A stretch of DNA of 64,000 bases, from positions 62,001-126,000 of the forward strand of contig JAOQAI010000016.1 in NCBI GenBank assembly GCA_025963645.1, in the 5' to 3' direction. The first letter of the stretch is position 1, and each line of letters opens with the position of its first letter. The notes under the pieces were generated by a model. The model saw only the letters and a list, made by a program, of their open reading frames with translations, was not told where the DNA came from and searched no databases. The position numbers were made by a program, and so were the translations under genes. The DNA is from Flaviaestuariibacter sp. Its GTDB lineage: Bacteria; Bacteroidota; Bacteroidia; Chitinophagales; Chitinophagaceae. Positions 33,502 to 60,289 of this stretch are shown piece after piece.

Positions 33502-34404
33502 TCACCCCATCGGTGCCAGCTCCGCATCCACTTTCACCGCCTGCCCCAGCTTTACCCGCAGACCGATCACTTCTTTCCCGTCGAAGGCGTGGTGACGGAT
33601 GGTGAAGCTATGGGTGCCGGGCTCCAGCCGCATTACATAGGAGCCGTCCGCTCCTGTATCCACTGAAAGGTTGCTGCCGACCAGCGATACCTTTGCCTGG
33701 TAAATGGGGGTGCCGTCCGCCGCCGACACTACCACGCCTTTCAGCTCGGTGTGGTTTACCTTGGGGTCCACTATCTCGCGGGCCTGCTCATACTCGTAAT
33801 AGAAAGAGGGCTCGGAAGCCTGGAAACGCTTGATGAAGAGGTCGCCATTCGTTTTCAGCAGCTCCCTGATCTCTTTAATGAGCGGCTGTATCTGCTGGCC
33901 GATCGCCGCCCGCTCGTCCTTCGTTTCCCGCGGCAGGTCCTGCACATTGTTATAATCTTCAATGGCGGTCTTCAGCGTCACCAGCATAGCCGGCGTCACG
34001 CCATAATCCGCCAGCGGGTTGGCATTGTCGAAGGCCAGCTTATGCACCTGGTCGGCAATGGCGGCGATCCTGCCAACGGCGATCTTTTCCAATTTATTAA
34101 GCGTGTAATCTACCTTTCCCTTCAGCTCAATATTGTTGGTGTTGACTGCAAAAATGAACAGCGGTCCCGTGAGGTCGTAAATGGCGGCACAGAGGGCCTG
34201 CCGCTTCTCATTCTTCTCGCCACCGGCGTCGCCATCTTCAGCACCATATTGTGTAGCCAGTTCCTCGAGCTTTTTAAGTTTGGCACCGAAGGCGATAAGG
34301 AAAGCGGCAAAGGCAGGGATGGCGTTAATAAGGGGTTGAAACTTTAACAGCACGCCATACACATTGCGAAACATAGCGAGTGTTGCATAATCGATCTTGC
34401 TCAT
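33502..34404 (-). CDS. Helical protein with C-terminal carboxypeptidase-regulatory-like domain
   Basis: 300 residues. About residues 1-220 are alpha-helical with no signal peptide (MSKIDYATLAMFRNVYGVLL, KVDYTLNKLEKIAVGRIAAI). About 225-300 form a CarboxypepD_reg-like beta sandwich (ELKGVVVSAADGTPIYQAKV, DTGADGSYVMRLEPGTHSF). The family is not one I can name; similar unnamed proteins occur in Chitinophagaceae. It starts 18 bp after a coiled-coil gene made of perfect heptads, so the two are probably an operon. Function unknown. Confidence 0.72.
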   Translation of the reverse strand: MSKIDYATLAMFRNVYGVLLKFQPLINAIPAFAAFLIAFGAKLKKLEELATQYGAEDGDAGGEKNEKRQALCAAIYDLTGPLFIFAVNTNNIELKGKVDYTLNKLEKIAVGRIAAIADQVHKLAFDNANPLADYGVTPAMLVTLKTAIEDYNNVQDLPRETKDERAAIGQQIQPLIKEIRELLKTNGDLFIKRFQASEPSFYYEYEQAREIVDPKVNHTELKGVVVSAADGTPIYQAKVSLVGSNLSVDTGADGSYVMRLEPGTHSFTIRHHAFDGKEVIGLRVKLGQAVKVDAELAPMG

Positions 34405-34422: not shown

Positions 34423-34815
34423 TTAAAAAATAAAAAACCATGTAGTTGCGATCCATTCCCCGGGCGCCTCCCCAGCTATCCCGTTCTGCCTCTTTCCTTC
34501 ATCGCTTTTAAGGATGGCGTTTTCTCCTTCAAGGATCGCGTTTTCTCCTTCAAGGATGCCATTTTCTTTCTTGAGGATGGCGTTTTCTCCTTCAAGGATG
34601 CCATTATCTTCTTCAAGGATGGCGTTTTCTCCTTCAAGGATGGCGTTTTCTCCTTCAAGGATGGCGTTTTCTTCCTTGAGGATGGCGTTTTCTTCCTTGA
34701 GGATGGCGTTTTCTTCCTTGAGGATGGCGTCCGCGACCGTCCTCCGCGCTTTGCCGGGCGTTGTTCCCCCTATTGCTTTCGCCAGGATAGCCGGTAATGG
34801 CAGCCATTCAACCAA
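34423..34815 (-). CDS. Perfect-heptad coiled-coil protein encoded by a 21-bp tandem repeat
   Basis: 130 residues. About residues 30-103 are ten to eleven copies of a heptad of the form E-N-A-I-L-K/E-E/G. With Asn at a and Leu at d, this reads as a dimeric leucine-zipper-like coil, though other registers are possible because Ile and Ala are adjacent. The flanks (MVEWLPLPAILAKAIGGTTP and GEWIATTWFFIF) are unrelated to it. The minus frame is favoured because several unit differences are synonymous in it (CTT/CTC, AAC/AAT, GCC/GCG) and because it ends 18 bp before the next gene on the same strand. Other frames are also open, so coding is not certain. Confidence 0.55.
   Translation of the reverse strand: MVEWLPLPAILAKAIGGTTPGKARRTVADAILKEENAILKEENAILKEENAILEGENAILEGENAILEEDNGILEGENAILKKENGILEGENAILEGENAILKSDEGKRQNGIAGEAPGEWIATTWFFIF
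34510..34740. repeat. 21-bp tandem repeat array (about 11 units)
   Basis: Units start at 34510, 34531, 34552, 34573, 34594, 34615, 34636, 34657, 34678, 34699 and, degenerate, 34720. The consensus is AAGGATGGCGTTTTCTCCTTC; unit junctions form TCCTT-C-AAGGA, a small palindrome. Period is exactly 21 bp, i.e. seven codons and about two helical turns. Confidence 0.9.
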
Positions 34816-34989: not shown

Positions 34990-35114
34990 GGGGTTTGGGG
35001 TTGGGGGTTTGGGGTTTGGGGTTGGGGGTTTAAGGTTTAAGGTTGGAGGTTTAAGGTTGGAGGTTGGGGTTGGGGGTTTGGGGTTTGGGGTTTAAGGTTG
35101 GAGGTTTGGGGTTT
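34990..35114. repeat. G-rich heptamer repeat (GGGGTTT/GGGGTTG), G-quadruplex-prone
   Basis: About 125 bp of plus-strand units such as GGGGTTT, GGGGTTG, AAGGTTT and GAGGTTG with a 7-nt period. Many runs of four or five G make quadruplex formation plausible. The inverse (AACCCCAAACC units) occurs at 35361-35395. Confidence 0.8.
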
Positions 35115-57880: not shown

Positions 57881-58642
57881 TTAGGCCGGTTTTTCAGCAG
57901 CTTTCTTCGCTGCACTGGCAGCCGCCTTACCGGAGCGCACCGCCAGCATATCGGCATAGGTTTCGGTGAGGGCGTTCAGCGAGGCGGCCAGCCCCAGCCA
58001 CGGCTCGGCGCCTCCCGCCACTTCGTAATGGCCCCGCAGCTTATTGACCAGTGCGGTATAGGCCATACCAGCTTCCACCCGCTTCTCCCGCAAGGTATAG
58101 GGCAGTGTGGTAGTAGCCGTGGCGTCGTTGCGCTCTACAAATTTGCTATTAAAATCGGTGTTCGCAGCTTTCAGCGCATCGTTCCACACATCGAGACCAA
58201 GCAGCATGACCGCAGCCGACAGATCGGGCTTTACCACCCAGTCATTAATGATGTTGTTGATCGTTGCCGTTTCGGCATTGTGCGACTGCGACCAGATGGA
58301 AGCGCCGTACAGCTTCAGGTTGTGCTGCACCTGGATGGCGGCGTTCCGCATCTCCTCGAAGGGGTGATCGGTGAGGGCATCTACCAGTTTGGCTATCGCT
58401 TTCAGCAACCGGTCGCGCTTTGCGTCCAACTGCTGCAATTGCTCGGACAGCAGGGCGGCATTATCGTTGATAAAGGCTTGATTGGCCTGGTCCAAAAGCG
58501 TGGTCAATTGGGTTTTGAGTGCTGCCACTGCCACAGGCAGCGGCGTAGCGCCAAAGGCGGCGGTGAGTGCGGTGAGGAATTGAGTGAGGTACTGGATGAA
58601 CTCCGGGTTGCGGAGGTTGGAGAGGTTTACTTTGTTAATCAT
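57881..58642 (-). CDS. DUF6261 family helical protein
   Basis: 253 residues, no signal peptide or membrane segment. NKVNLSNLRNPEFIQYLTQF at the N terminus, LLSEQLQQLDAKRDRLLKAI, and FEEMRNAAIQVQHNLKLYGA with TLREKRVEAGMAYTALVN in the second half fit DUF6261, a mostly helical Bacteroidota family of unknown function. The last 16 residues are Ala/Lys-rich. An array of 20-bp palindromes with a 41-bp period lies 108 bp upstream of its start. It resembles the gene at 33502 in size class and in having a tandem array in front, but the two proteins do not look homologous. Confidence 0.82.
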   Translation of the reverse strand: MINKVNLSNLRNPEFIQYLTQFLTALTAAFGATPLPVAVAALKTQLTTLLDQANQAFINDNAALLSEQLQQLDAKRDRLLKAIAKLVDALTDHPFEEMRNAAIQVQHNLKLYGASIWSQSHNAETATINNIINDWVVKPDLSAAVMLLGLDVWNDALKAANTDFNSKFVERNDATATTTLPYTLREKRVEAGMAYTALVNKLRGHYEVAGGAEPWLGLAASLNALTETYADMLAVRSGKAAASAAKKAAEKPA

Positions 58643-58750
58643 GGTTGTAGGTTTTAAGAGTTAAGGTAAAAATTACTGCTGGGTTTGCAAAATTTTGCTG
58701 TGGTTTTCTTGCTTTGTTAGTGAAAGGGCAGGCAAAGGAATCAAAGACCG
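58643..58750. other. Leader of the DUF6261 gene
   Basis: 108 bp, AT-rich, between the array and the ATG. It contains TTGCAAAATTTTGC (about 58685-58698), a 14-nt palindrome, and a further decayed TTGC...AAAG unit (about 58709-58727), perhaps older array remnants. No TAnnTTTG box was found. Confidence 0.35.
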
Positions 58751-59017
58751 CTTCCTTCGCCCATGCAAATGTGGTTTTCTCAAAAAGCCGCTTGCATGGA
58801 GCCATGCAAATGCGATTTAGTGAAAAAATGCCTTGCATGGGACCATGCAAACTTGAATAGGCAAAAAAACGGCTTGCATGAGGCTATGGAAACCGGAATT
58901 GAAGAAAATGAGGCTTGCATGGTACCATGCAAGTGCGGGTTTGCAATTTTTTGGGTTTGCATGGTGCTATGCAATCGGTTCAGGAGGGATTTGGGACTTG
59001 CTTGGTATGAAGCAAGG
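58751..59017. repeat. Array of about seven 20-bp palindromes with a 41-bp period
   Basis: Units begin at 58751 (degenerate), 58791, 58832, 58873, 58914, 58956 and 58997; steps are 40, 41, 41, 41, 42 and 41 bp. The core is CTTGCATGG-NN-CCATGCAAG, best at 58914. The last unit reads CTTGCTT-GGTATG-AAGCAAG, both arms changed together, keeping the palindrome. Between cores lie about 21-bp A- or G-rich, non-identical stretches. No cas gene is near, and 41 is not a multiple of three. Confidence 0.9.
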
Positions 59018-59768: not shown

Positions 59769-59990
59769 ATGGCGGCACCTTCTTTAGATAGCGAATTCAT
59801 GCAGTATTGGGCCCAATTAACGGTGGTTCAAAAAACATCATTGCTAAGTGTTATCAAATCATTTGTGCAGGAAGGCGAGTCTATTAGCCTGGAACAGTAC
59901 AACCGGGAAATAGATGAAGCGGTGGCGGATATGCAGAAAGGTGAAGTGGTGAGCCACGCAGACGTAATCCGGTTATCAAAAGAATGGTAA
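59769..59990 (+). CDS. Antitoxin of a RelE/ParE-type toxin-antitoxin pair
   Basis: 73 residues. A helical dimerisation-like N part (DSEFMQYWAQLTVVQKTSLL) is followed by SLEQYNREIDEAVADMQKGE and VVSHADVIRLSKEW, the form of short antitoxins paired with RelE/ParE toxins. It is overlapped by the toxin start (TAATG), the usual order antitoxin then toxin. Confidence 0.8.
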   Translation: MAAPSLDSEFMQYWAQLTVVQKTSLLSVIKSFVQEGESISLEQYNREIDEAVADMQKGEVVSHADVIRLSKEW

Positions 59991-60289
59991 TGGCCGAAAG
60001 AACTATTATCTGGACTAAAACCGCTCTCCGGCAATTTCAGGCATCCATAGAATACATTCGTGCAGACTCGGAGCAATCGGCAACAGAAGTAAAGGAGAAA
60101 CTTCTATCGGCTATTGAGCAGTTGCGAGTTGATGCTGCTATTCATCGGAAAGACCCTTATAAGTCGGATAATGATGGCAGCTTTCTCTATTTTGAATTGC
60201 TTAGGCACCGCATTGTCTATCATTTAATTGGGGACCAAGTATTTATTATCAGAATCAGACATACGAGTAGGGAACCTAGATCATATTAG
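59990..60289 (+). CDS. RelE/ParE-type toxin
   Basis: 99 residues from the ATG at 59990, which overlaps the antitoxin stop; an ATG 6 bp earlier is also in frame. IIWTKTALRQFQASIEYIRA at the N terminus, then ELLRHRIVYHLIGDQVFIIR and a terminal IRHTSREPRSY with the basic residues match the RelE/ParE fold. Such toxins cut mRNA on the ribosome (RelE) or poison gyrase (ParE); which applies is not clear. The RHTSREP ending is typical of the family. Confidence 0.85.
   Translation: MAERTIIWTKTALRQFQASIEYIRADSEQSATEVKEKLLSAIEQLRVDAAIHRKDPYKSDNDGSFLYFELLRHRIVYHLIGDQVFIIRIRHTSREPRSY

Follow-up and report, generated by a model that had tools for sequence, protein, structure and literature searches.

DUF6261, a protein family without known function, is in our reading (probability about 70%) a sequence-specific DNA-binding protein that reads its own private, iteron-like array of palindromic sites by means of an N-terminal arm; the family would thereby gain a testable function, binding sites and candidate specificity residues. 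A protein dimer would occupy each dyad, with each half-site read by the N-terminal arm (residues about 4–12). With about two or four turns of the helix between successive sites, the bound dimers would line up on one face of the DNA and could pack there cooperatively, in the manner of plasmid Rep proteins on iterons. Site and reader would change together across paralogues, so that the paralogues of one genome would have different addresses.

The reading draws on the array and its period, on the linkage of such arrays to DUF6261 across the phylum, on their dyad symmetry, on the confinement of one motif to one protein clade and on the joint switching, within that clade, of residue 8 and an inner base of the dyad. 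Binding is probably direct, dimeric and to duplex DNA; the geometry of the arm is suggested by the coevolution of site and protein sequences.

A phased array upstream of a DUF6261 gene

The window is a stretch of 64,000 nucleotides from Flaviaestuariibacter sp. (genome G000). Re-reading it and scanning it for repeats confirmed the predicted array at 58751–59017, which lies upstream of the start of a DUF6261 gene:

58751..59017, no strand: helically phased array of about seven dyads, 40–42 bp apart (repeat and palindrome inspection of the window)
58751..58770, no strand: dyad unit 1, left arm degenerate, keeps the right arm only
58791..58810, no strand: dyad unit 2, perfect 18-bp core TTGCATGG-NN-CCATGCAA
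58832..58851, no strand: dyad unit 3, perfect 18-bp core TTGCATGG-NN-CCATGCAA
58873..58892, no strand: dyad unit 4, imperfect in both arms
58914..58933, no strand: dyad unit 5, perfect 20-bp palindrome, including the perfect 18-bp core TTGCATGG-NN-CCATGCAA
58956..58975, no strand: dyad unit 6, core with one change
58997..59016, no strand: dyad unit 7, compensated arms CTTGCTT/AAGCAAG
57881..58642, minus strand: DUF6261 gene, 253 aa (PF19775, E = 3.2e-28), candidate reader of the array beside it, by its N-terminal arm (residues 1–12)
58661..58692, minus strand: putative promoter-like elements of the DUF6261 gene (TTTTGC, 18 bp, TACCTTAA), between array and gene, read from the sequence against the Bacteroidota promoter consensus

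The original prediction gave the array an exact 41-bp period. The period is about 41 bp, and "exact" is slightly too strong: steps run from 40 to 42 bp, the first step of the prediction itself being 40, and the dyads between 58789 and 59015 are spaced by 41, 41, 41, 42 and 41 bp. The core CTTGCATGG-NN-CCATGCAAG, which had been ascribed to every unit, is present in its full 20-bp form only in the unit at 58914; the perfect 18-bp core occurs in three of the seven units, one of these being the perfect 20-bp palindrome. The compensated arm change in the unit at 58997 is real, and the two ideas put forward with it, selection for dyad symmetry and dyads facing about one side of the helix, both hold. 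Spacers described as unlike turn out not to be unrelated, since the 41-mers that include them align with one another at 61–73%. A CRISPR array, a likeness raised and set aside at the outset, is rejected here too: the repeats vary and the 41-mers resemble each other along their length, so that these are not near-identical repeats with unrelated spacers. No cas family was found among the five neighbouring ORFs scanned.

The window motif is almost private to its own array within its genome. With up to two mismatches allowed, the core recurs at four places within the array and at two single places elsewhere, one of which is another array of about 41 bp.

The adjacent gene is a member of its family by a wide score (99 bits against PF19775, curated cut-off 27), and DUF6261 is the sole Pfam family above cut-off in its product. 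An AlphaFold2 model of the protein is all-helical, without strands (mean pLDDT 89, pTM 0.65), and predicts a helix bundle with a short N-terminal arm. A Foldseek search with the model gave no clear known fold (0 of 882 matches at E≤0.001), and one query each of IMG/VR and PLSDB returned no relatives. Of 5.39 million open-access papers one names DUF6261, as a table entry in a Streptococcus paper, and the parts consulted of papers on iteron-like repeats, palindromic arrays, 21-bp repeats and repeats of Chryseobacterium contained nothing recognised as these arrays. Elsewhere in the window is a ParE-type toxin gene (59769–60289, plus strand; PF05016, E = 3e-12), and the short ORF just upstream of it may be an antitoxin.

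Period and placement of arrays across Bacteroidota

The window's genome contains three DUF6261 genes. The family is present in five of the 58 genomes of a set of kin, all five within its 18 same-genus genomes, and in 12 of 395 genomes of a phylum-wide draw (11 over the curated score), with up to 14 paralogues per genome; 55 loci were taken with organism names. We compared 97 distinct upstream regions, scanning direct-repeat lags between 28 and 67 bp. Duplicates (L012, L015, L058, L095), truncated or partial genes (L040, L046, L105, L110), one gene below cut-off (L047) and three G011 genes without a locus were excluded.

The best lag lies at 41–43 bp in 87 of the 97 upstream regions and outside that range in the other ten. 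Control stretches of the same loci give 9 of 95 (downstream), 7 of 97 (coding) and 6 of 94 (far upstream). The enrichment of periodic palindromes upstream of other DUF6261 genes, which had been proposed as a check, is thus strongly positive, and the link to DUF6261 holds. Autocorrelation of dyad centres over the upstream regions peaks at 42, 21, 84, 41 and 63 bp, and the periods of 21, 42, 63 and 84 bp are about whole helical turns; such pooled scores ignore relatedness, nine Pedobacter loci being close kin. In a stricter test, which asks for four palindromes in a chain, the real sequence outscored every one of 20 shuffles at just 15 of 30 same-genus loci; locus by locus, repeats thus give a stronger signal than dyads. 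In many arrays two palindromes alternate at a distance of about 21 bp, and the palindrome sequences differ between loci. Nine of the 97 arrays go undetected at the array-detection threshold; L026, one of these, shows an array by eye.

The distance from array end to ATG is 8–60 bp in many Weeksellaceae and Pedobacter loci and mostly 70–170 bp in the window's relatives; because of this difference between groups, no single promoter–operator geometry serves for all loci. DUF6261 proteins are acidic (median pI 5.4, n = 98), which, like the lack of a clear fold match, counts against DNA binding; their loci lie in chromosomal contigs, five of them, for example, within a single 4.0-Mb contig of G361.

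Three apparently identical copies (L008, L012, L015) were considered as a sign of mobility. This was rejected: L282 and L283 are overlapping contig ends (an overlap also exists between C39 and C47 of G011), and L281 is set apart by an indel of about 740 bp. The indel itself (L281:1643–2382, genome G010) carries a 177-aa ORF directly upstream of the DUF6261 array, and occurs in one contig but not in its near-identical counterpart.

Dyad type, protein clade and residues of the N-terminal arm

A particular type of dyad is restricted to a single clade of DUF6261 proteins, irrespective of the genome. In a tree built from 94 proteins, loci were labelled by the presence of two or more TTTC-N10-GAAA dyads upstream; 26 of the 94 carry the label, and the same count downstream is 0 of 94. 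All 26 fall inside a single 41-row clade (support 86/94, short of the level that the tool stars) with members from Weeksellaceae, Flavobacteriaceae, Prolixibacteraceae and Chitinophagaceae. Outside the clade the label is found in none of 53 rows, which include paralogues from the same genomes (L056 and L057 of G361; L050 and L055 of G068): paralogues within one genome have different dyads. The label requires 14 changes on the tree, against a mean of 23 when shuffled, and none of 500 shuffles was as low. General k-mer likeness of the arrays also rises with protein identity, more so upstream than downstream, a trend confounded by base composition.

The dyad of the clade is TTTC-NNN-N4-NNN-GAAA. 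Its three inner bases vary, with both arms changing together, and the variants include GGG, CGG, TTG, TAT, TCT and TCA. Classes were assigned by the first inner base where it was clear and the locus had four or more half-sites (G, n = 14; C, n = 9), the mixed loci L081, L083 and L098 being left out of the counts. In the numbering of L075, where residue 8 is equivalent to residue 9 of the window protein, residue 8 is K in 14 of 14 G-class and 0 of 9 C-class loci, and residue 7 is K, R, Q or W in 9 of 9 C-class and 0 of 14 G-class loci. No other column separates the classes fully, the next reaching 0.86. When each of 222 variable columns is scored by agreement of its majority residue with class, residue 8 stands at 1.00 (23/23), residue 5 at 0.91 (21/23) and the next at 0.70, in a screen made after inspection of the motif and not on an independent sample.

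The base class has switched four times on the tree, and residue 8 switched with it in all four independent pairs (sign test, p = 0.125, the lowest value that four pairs allow). L064 (CGG) and L075 (GGG) share 228 of 244 residues, yet they belong to different classes and differ at residues 7 and 8; natural homologues of this kind are ready-made swaps, the two proteins having just 16 differences in 244. Five unambiguous loci with only two half-sites agree with the rule: L061 and L088 (G, K) and L038, L069 and L108 (C, L). L103, whose inner bases are TCA (T class), also has K, and K at residue 8 is therefore not exclusive to G. At residue 5, H goes with C as the second inner base (L069, L073, L103); E also goes with C, in three loci. 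The centre of the TTTC dyad is polar (A 119, T 46 over 61 dyads), which counts against a symmetric dimer, since such a dimer does not need polarity.

The coevolution is seen in a clade other than that of the window protein, which presumably works likewise. Other clades have dyads with other outer arms, for example TTGCA or GCACT (upstream regions of L060 and L090), and these may allow the same residue–base test.

A different protein might use these sites, the array being the multi-site operator of another regulator, for example the product of the helix-turn-helix gene that lies directly upstream in some Chryseobacterium loci. The upstream gene looks XRE-like in at least six of the 47 loci with enough flank (L080, L083, L085, L094, L095, L104), and the five of these that were scanned (L080, L083, L085, L094, L104) match HTH_3 above cut-off. 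We consider this quite unlikely: no neighbour gene is common to all 47 flanked loci, the dyad type is restricted to one DUF6261 clade and switches with residues 5 and 8 of DUF6261 itself, and paralogues of one genome have different dyads. As a separate observation, the HTH_3 genes of some Chryseobacterium loci (L080, L083, L085, L094, L104) have a coiled-coil tail and end directly before the DUF6261 array.

Further array families and known systems

The window holds a second case, in which the gene belongs to a different family (fam2):

33502..34404, minus strand: fam2 gene, 300 aa, with a C-terminal CarboxypepD_reg domain
34510..34730, no strand: array of 21-bp period upstream of the fam2 gene, 10.5 copies, 87% matches

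The N-terminal domain of this gene's product (about 215 aa) has no Pfam or NCBIfam match over cut-off. Among fam2 kin, leaving aside one contig-edge duplicate and matches confined to the common C-terminal domain (as is the match in G001), the best lag is 21 in 15 of 16 examined. In the phylum, 20 of 390 genomes match, and the best lag of full-length loci is 21 or 42 in 15 of 17, two of these weakly. A third family (fam3; 18 matches, two pieces of one broken gene excluded) has upstream arrays with a best lag of 42 (ten) or 43 (six) in 16 of 16 loci. In a fourth (fam4; 12 matches, one fragment excluded) a lag of 21/42 (five) or 22 (two) is found in 7 of 10 loci downstream of the gene, and 0 of 11 have an array upstream. 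A Pfam scan of one fam3, one fam4 and seven fam2 members gave no family over cut-off for the shared domain. Within the 18 same-genus genomes the four families occur only in G000, G008, G010, G011 and G016, and not every family in each.

Common ancestry of the four families is not established: profile comparison gave a probability of 41% for fam2 and fam3 (E = 2.8e-4), 11–32% with an offset for DUF6261 and fam2 (another DUF6261 alignment gave nothing) and under 7% for the remaining pairs. The fam2 proteins are basic (median pI 9.2, n = 17), in contrast to acidic DUF6261. Nor do the arrays appear to be coding. Across 15 fam2 arrays no frame was consistently richest in synonymous change (0.10–0.41 over all frames, no formal test), and periods of 41 and 43 bp, not being multiples of three, speak against a coding reading.

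The families have in common not hairpins but sites that recur every two or four helical turns or so; at 10.5 bp per turn, periods of 41, 43 and 22 bp depart slightly from this. This bears on the possibility that the array acts as RNA, as a chain of hairpins in the mRNA leader or trailer that is bound by the encoded protein or by itself affects translation or stability. Where arrays end 8–60 bp before the ATG they may be transcribed. DUF6261 arrays fold better than shuffled sequence (median z −3.4 sense, −2.9 antisense, with the sense value the lower one in 61 of 97, p = 0.006) and also better than their controls from downstream (−2.3, −2.0; n = 95), fam3 arrays too fold better than shuffled sequence (−3.8/−3.7, n = 16) and fam4 arrays weakly so, and the A-rich, polar centre of the TTTC-clade dyad would also suit RNA. 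Against this, non-Watson–Crick pairs in the dyads are about balanced (G.T 68 versus A.C 53, p = 0.20), that is, about strand-symmetric; in absolute folding energy the sense strand is the lower of the two in just 27 of 97; fam2 arrays fold no better than shuffled sequence (median z −0.26, n = 33); fam4 arrays lie downstream of the gene; and spacing by whole helical turns is not expected of RNA hairpins. The RNA-hairpin option of the original prediction is thus disfavoured: as an account of the DUF6261 arrays it is unlikely, and so are RNA hairpins as the common principle of the families.

Stretches of four genomes show how closely arrays follow these genes; those of G000, G361 and G011 are not random, some having been chosen for known loci, and those of G003 lie on an even grid. 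In 464 kb of G000, including the window, the strictest threshold gives eight arrays at 41 ± 1 and five at 43 ± 1 bp (both include lag 42). Thirteen other periods give none or one each, with none at 11 of the 13. A looser threshold gives ten rows: three DUF6261, two fam2, one simple repeat and four rows to which no partner gene could be assigned (L123, L125 and two in L127). The seven arrays in 400 kb of G011 comprise three DUF6261, one each of fam2, fam3 and fam4, and one without a recognised partner, and 399 kb of G361 hold four DUF6261 arrays and three weak rows. The original prediction had named the same array at random sites in related genomes as evidence against it. This is borne out in part, by arrays beside three other families and the four partnerless arrays in 464 kb of G000. 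In 400 kb of G003, a complete same-genus genome that lacks these genes, there are zero such arrays.

Several items from these scans are recorded in their own right: arrays with the same period for which no partner gene was recognised (L123:12945–13311, L127:9741–10075, L125:7912–8084, L209:10530–10821); a 42-bp dyad array that falls within an ORF of 258 aa whose winged-helix tail is weakly MarR-like (L127:17664–18440); an AT-rich array of 21-bp period without a recognised partner (L139:19193–19361, G361); and a simple GGTTTGG-type repeat in the window (34990–35114), unrelated to the arrays.

The arrays could instead be by-products of single-strand transposases (Y1, IS200-like or REP-associated) or of slippage, the neighbouring gene having no role. 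Of the genes of the four families, 4 of 7 in G011, 2 of 4 in G010 and 1 of 5 in G361 have a Y1_Tnp match no more than 0.9 kb away, an apparent excess; the matches near L057/L134 and L063 are over the Pfam cut-off, and those near L061, L088 and L129 below it. However, only a handful of the 47 flanked loci have a Y1 neighbour, the window motif is private and not dispersed, and slippage leaves unexplained a period near two or four turns across unrelated sequences, the compensated dyads and the matching residues. We regard this origin as very improbable.

If DUF6261 does read its own array, the likeliest outcome is that it regulates its own gene and/or forms a nucleoprotein filament at its home locus, a step of which we are less confident than of binding; the multi-site operator was the nearest of the options originally offered. 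Autoregulation would be the simplest outcome where the array adjoins the promoter, and because fam4 arrays lie downstream, a filament or tether may be the more general role. We give even odds to a wider generalisation, that Bacteroidota contain self-addressed loci of at least four families, with several paralogues per genome, private arrays phased to about two or four turns and N-terminal-arm residues re-specified together with the array. Such loci would constitute a natural, fast-changing DNA-recognition code, with locus-specific filaments, tethers and mutual exclusion between paralogues as candidate roles. Should the other families obey the same rule, a large phylum would hold an unrecognised kind of protein–DNA locus and a new N-terminal-arm recognition code.

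Known systems share some of these features. Type III toxin–antitoxin loci have a locus-specific tandem repeat array, the source of a repeat RNA, upstream of a gene, and DUF6261 arrays likewise are tandem, upstream and different at each locus; however, the DUF6261 gene has no ToxN, CptN or TenpN match in Pfam, its product is modelled as all-helical, the fam4 array is downstream and fam2 arrays do not fold. In the ribbon-helix-helix repressors MetJ and Arc the N-terminal arm of a dimer reads palindromic half-sites, and tandem sites are bound cooperatively. The arm proposed for DUF6261 would act similarly, although the protein is about 245 aa, helical and without a ribbon-helix-helix match in Pfam. 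Centromere-like arrays (parS/parC, with ParB/ParR) are phased repeats beside the gene of their binder, as DUF6261 arrays would be, but there is no partner gene common to the 47 flanked loci, and private arrays are many per chromosome. REPs are dispersed, usually in over 100 copies per genome, according to PMC2817692. DUF6261 arrays resemble the REP/RAYT system as palindromic intergenic repeats with Y1 transposases recurring nearby; the window palindrome, in contrast, is confined essentially to one array.

A close parallel lies in plasmid iterons, which usually adjoin the rep gene. According to PMC4980987, iterons are tandem sites about two turns apart (17–22 bp), bound cooperatively and sequence-specifically by winged-helix Rep proteins, and displacement by half a helical turn abolishes cooperative binding. 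DUF6261 arrays share tandem sites at about whole helical turns beside the gene of the presumed reader. They differ in that the sites are dyads, that the loci are chromosomal, with many private arrays and up to 14 paralogues per genome, and that DUF6261 is predicted to be an all-helical bundle and not a winged-helix protein. We therefore propose, by analogy, that DUF6261 arrays work like iteron–Rep binding and yet are not members of the iteron class.
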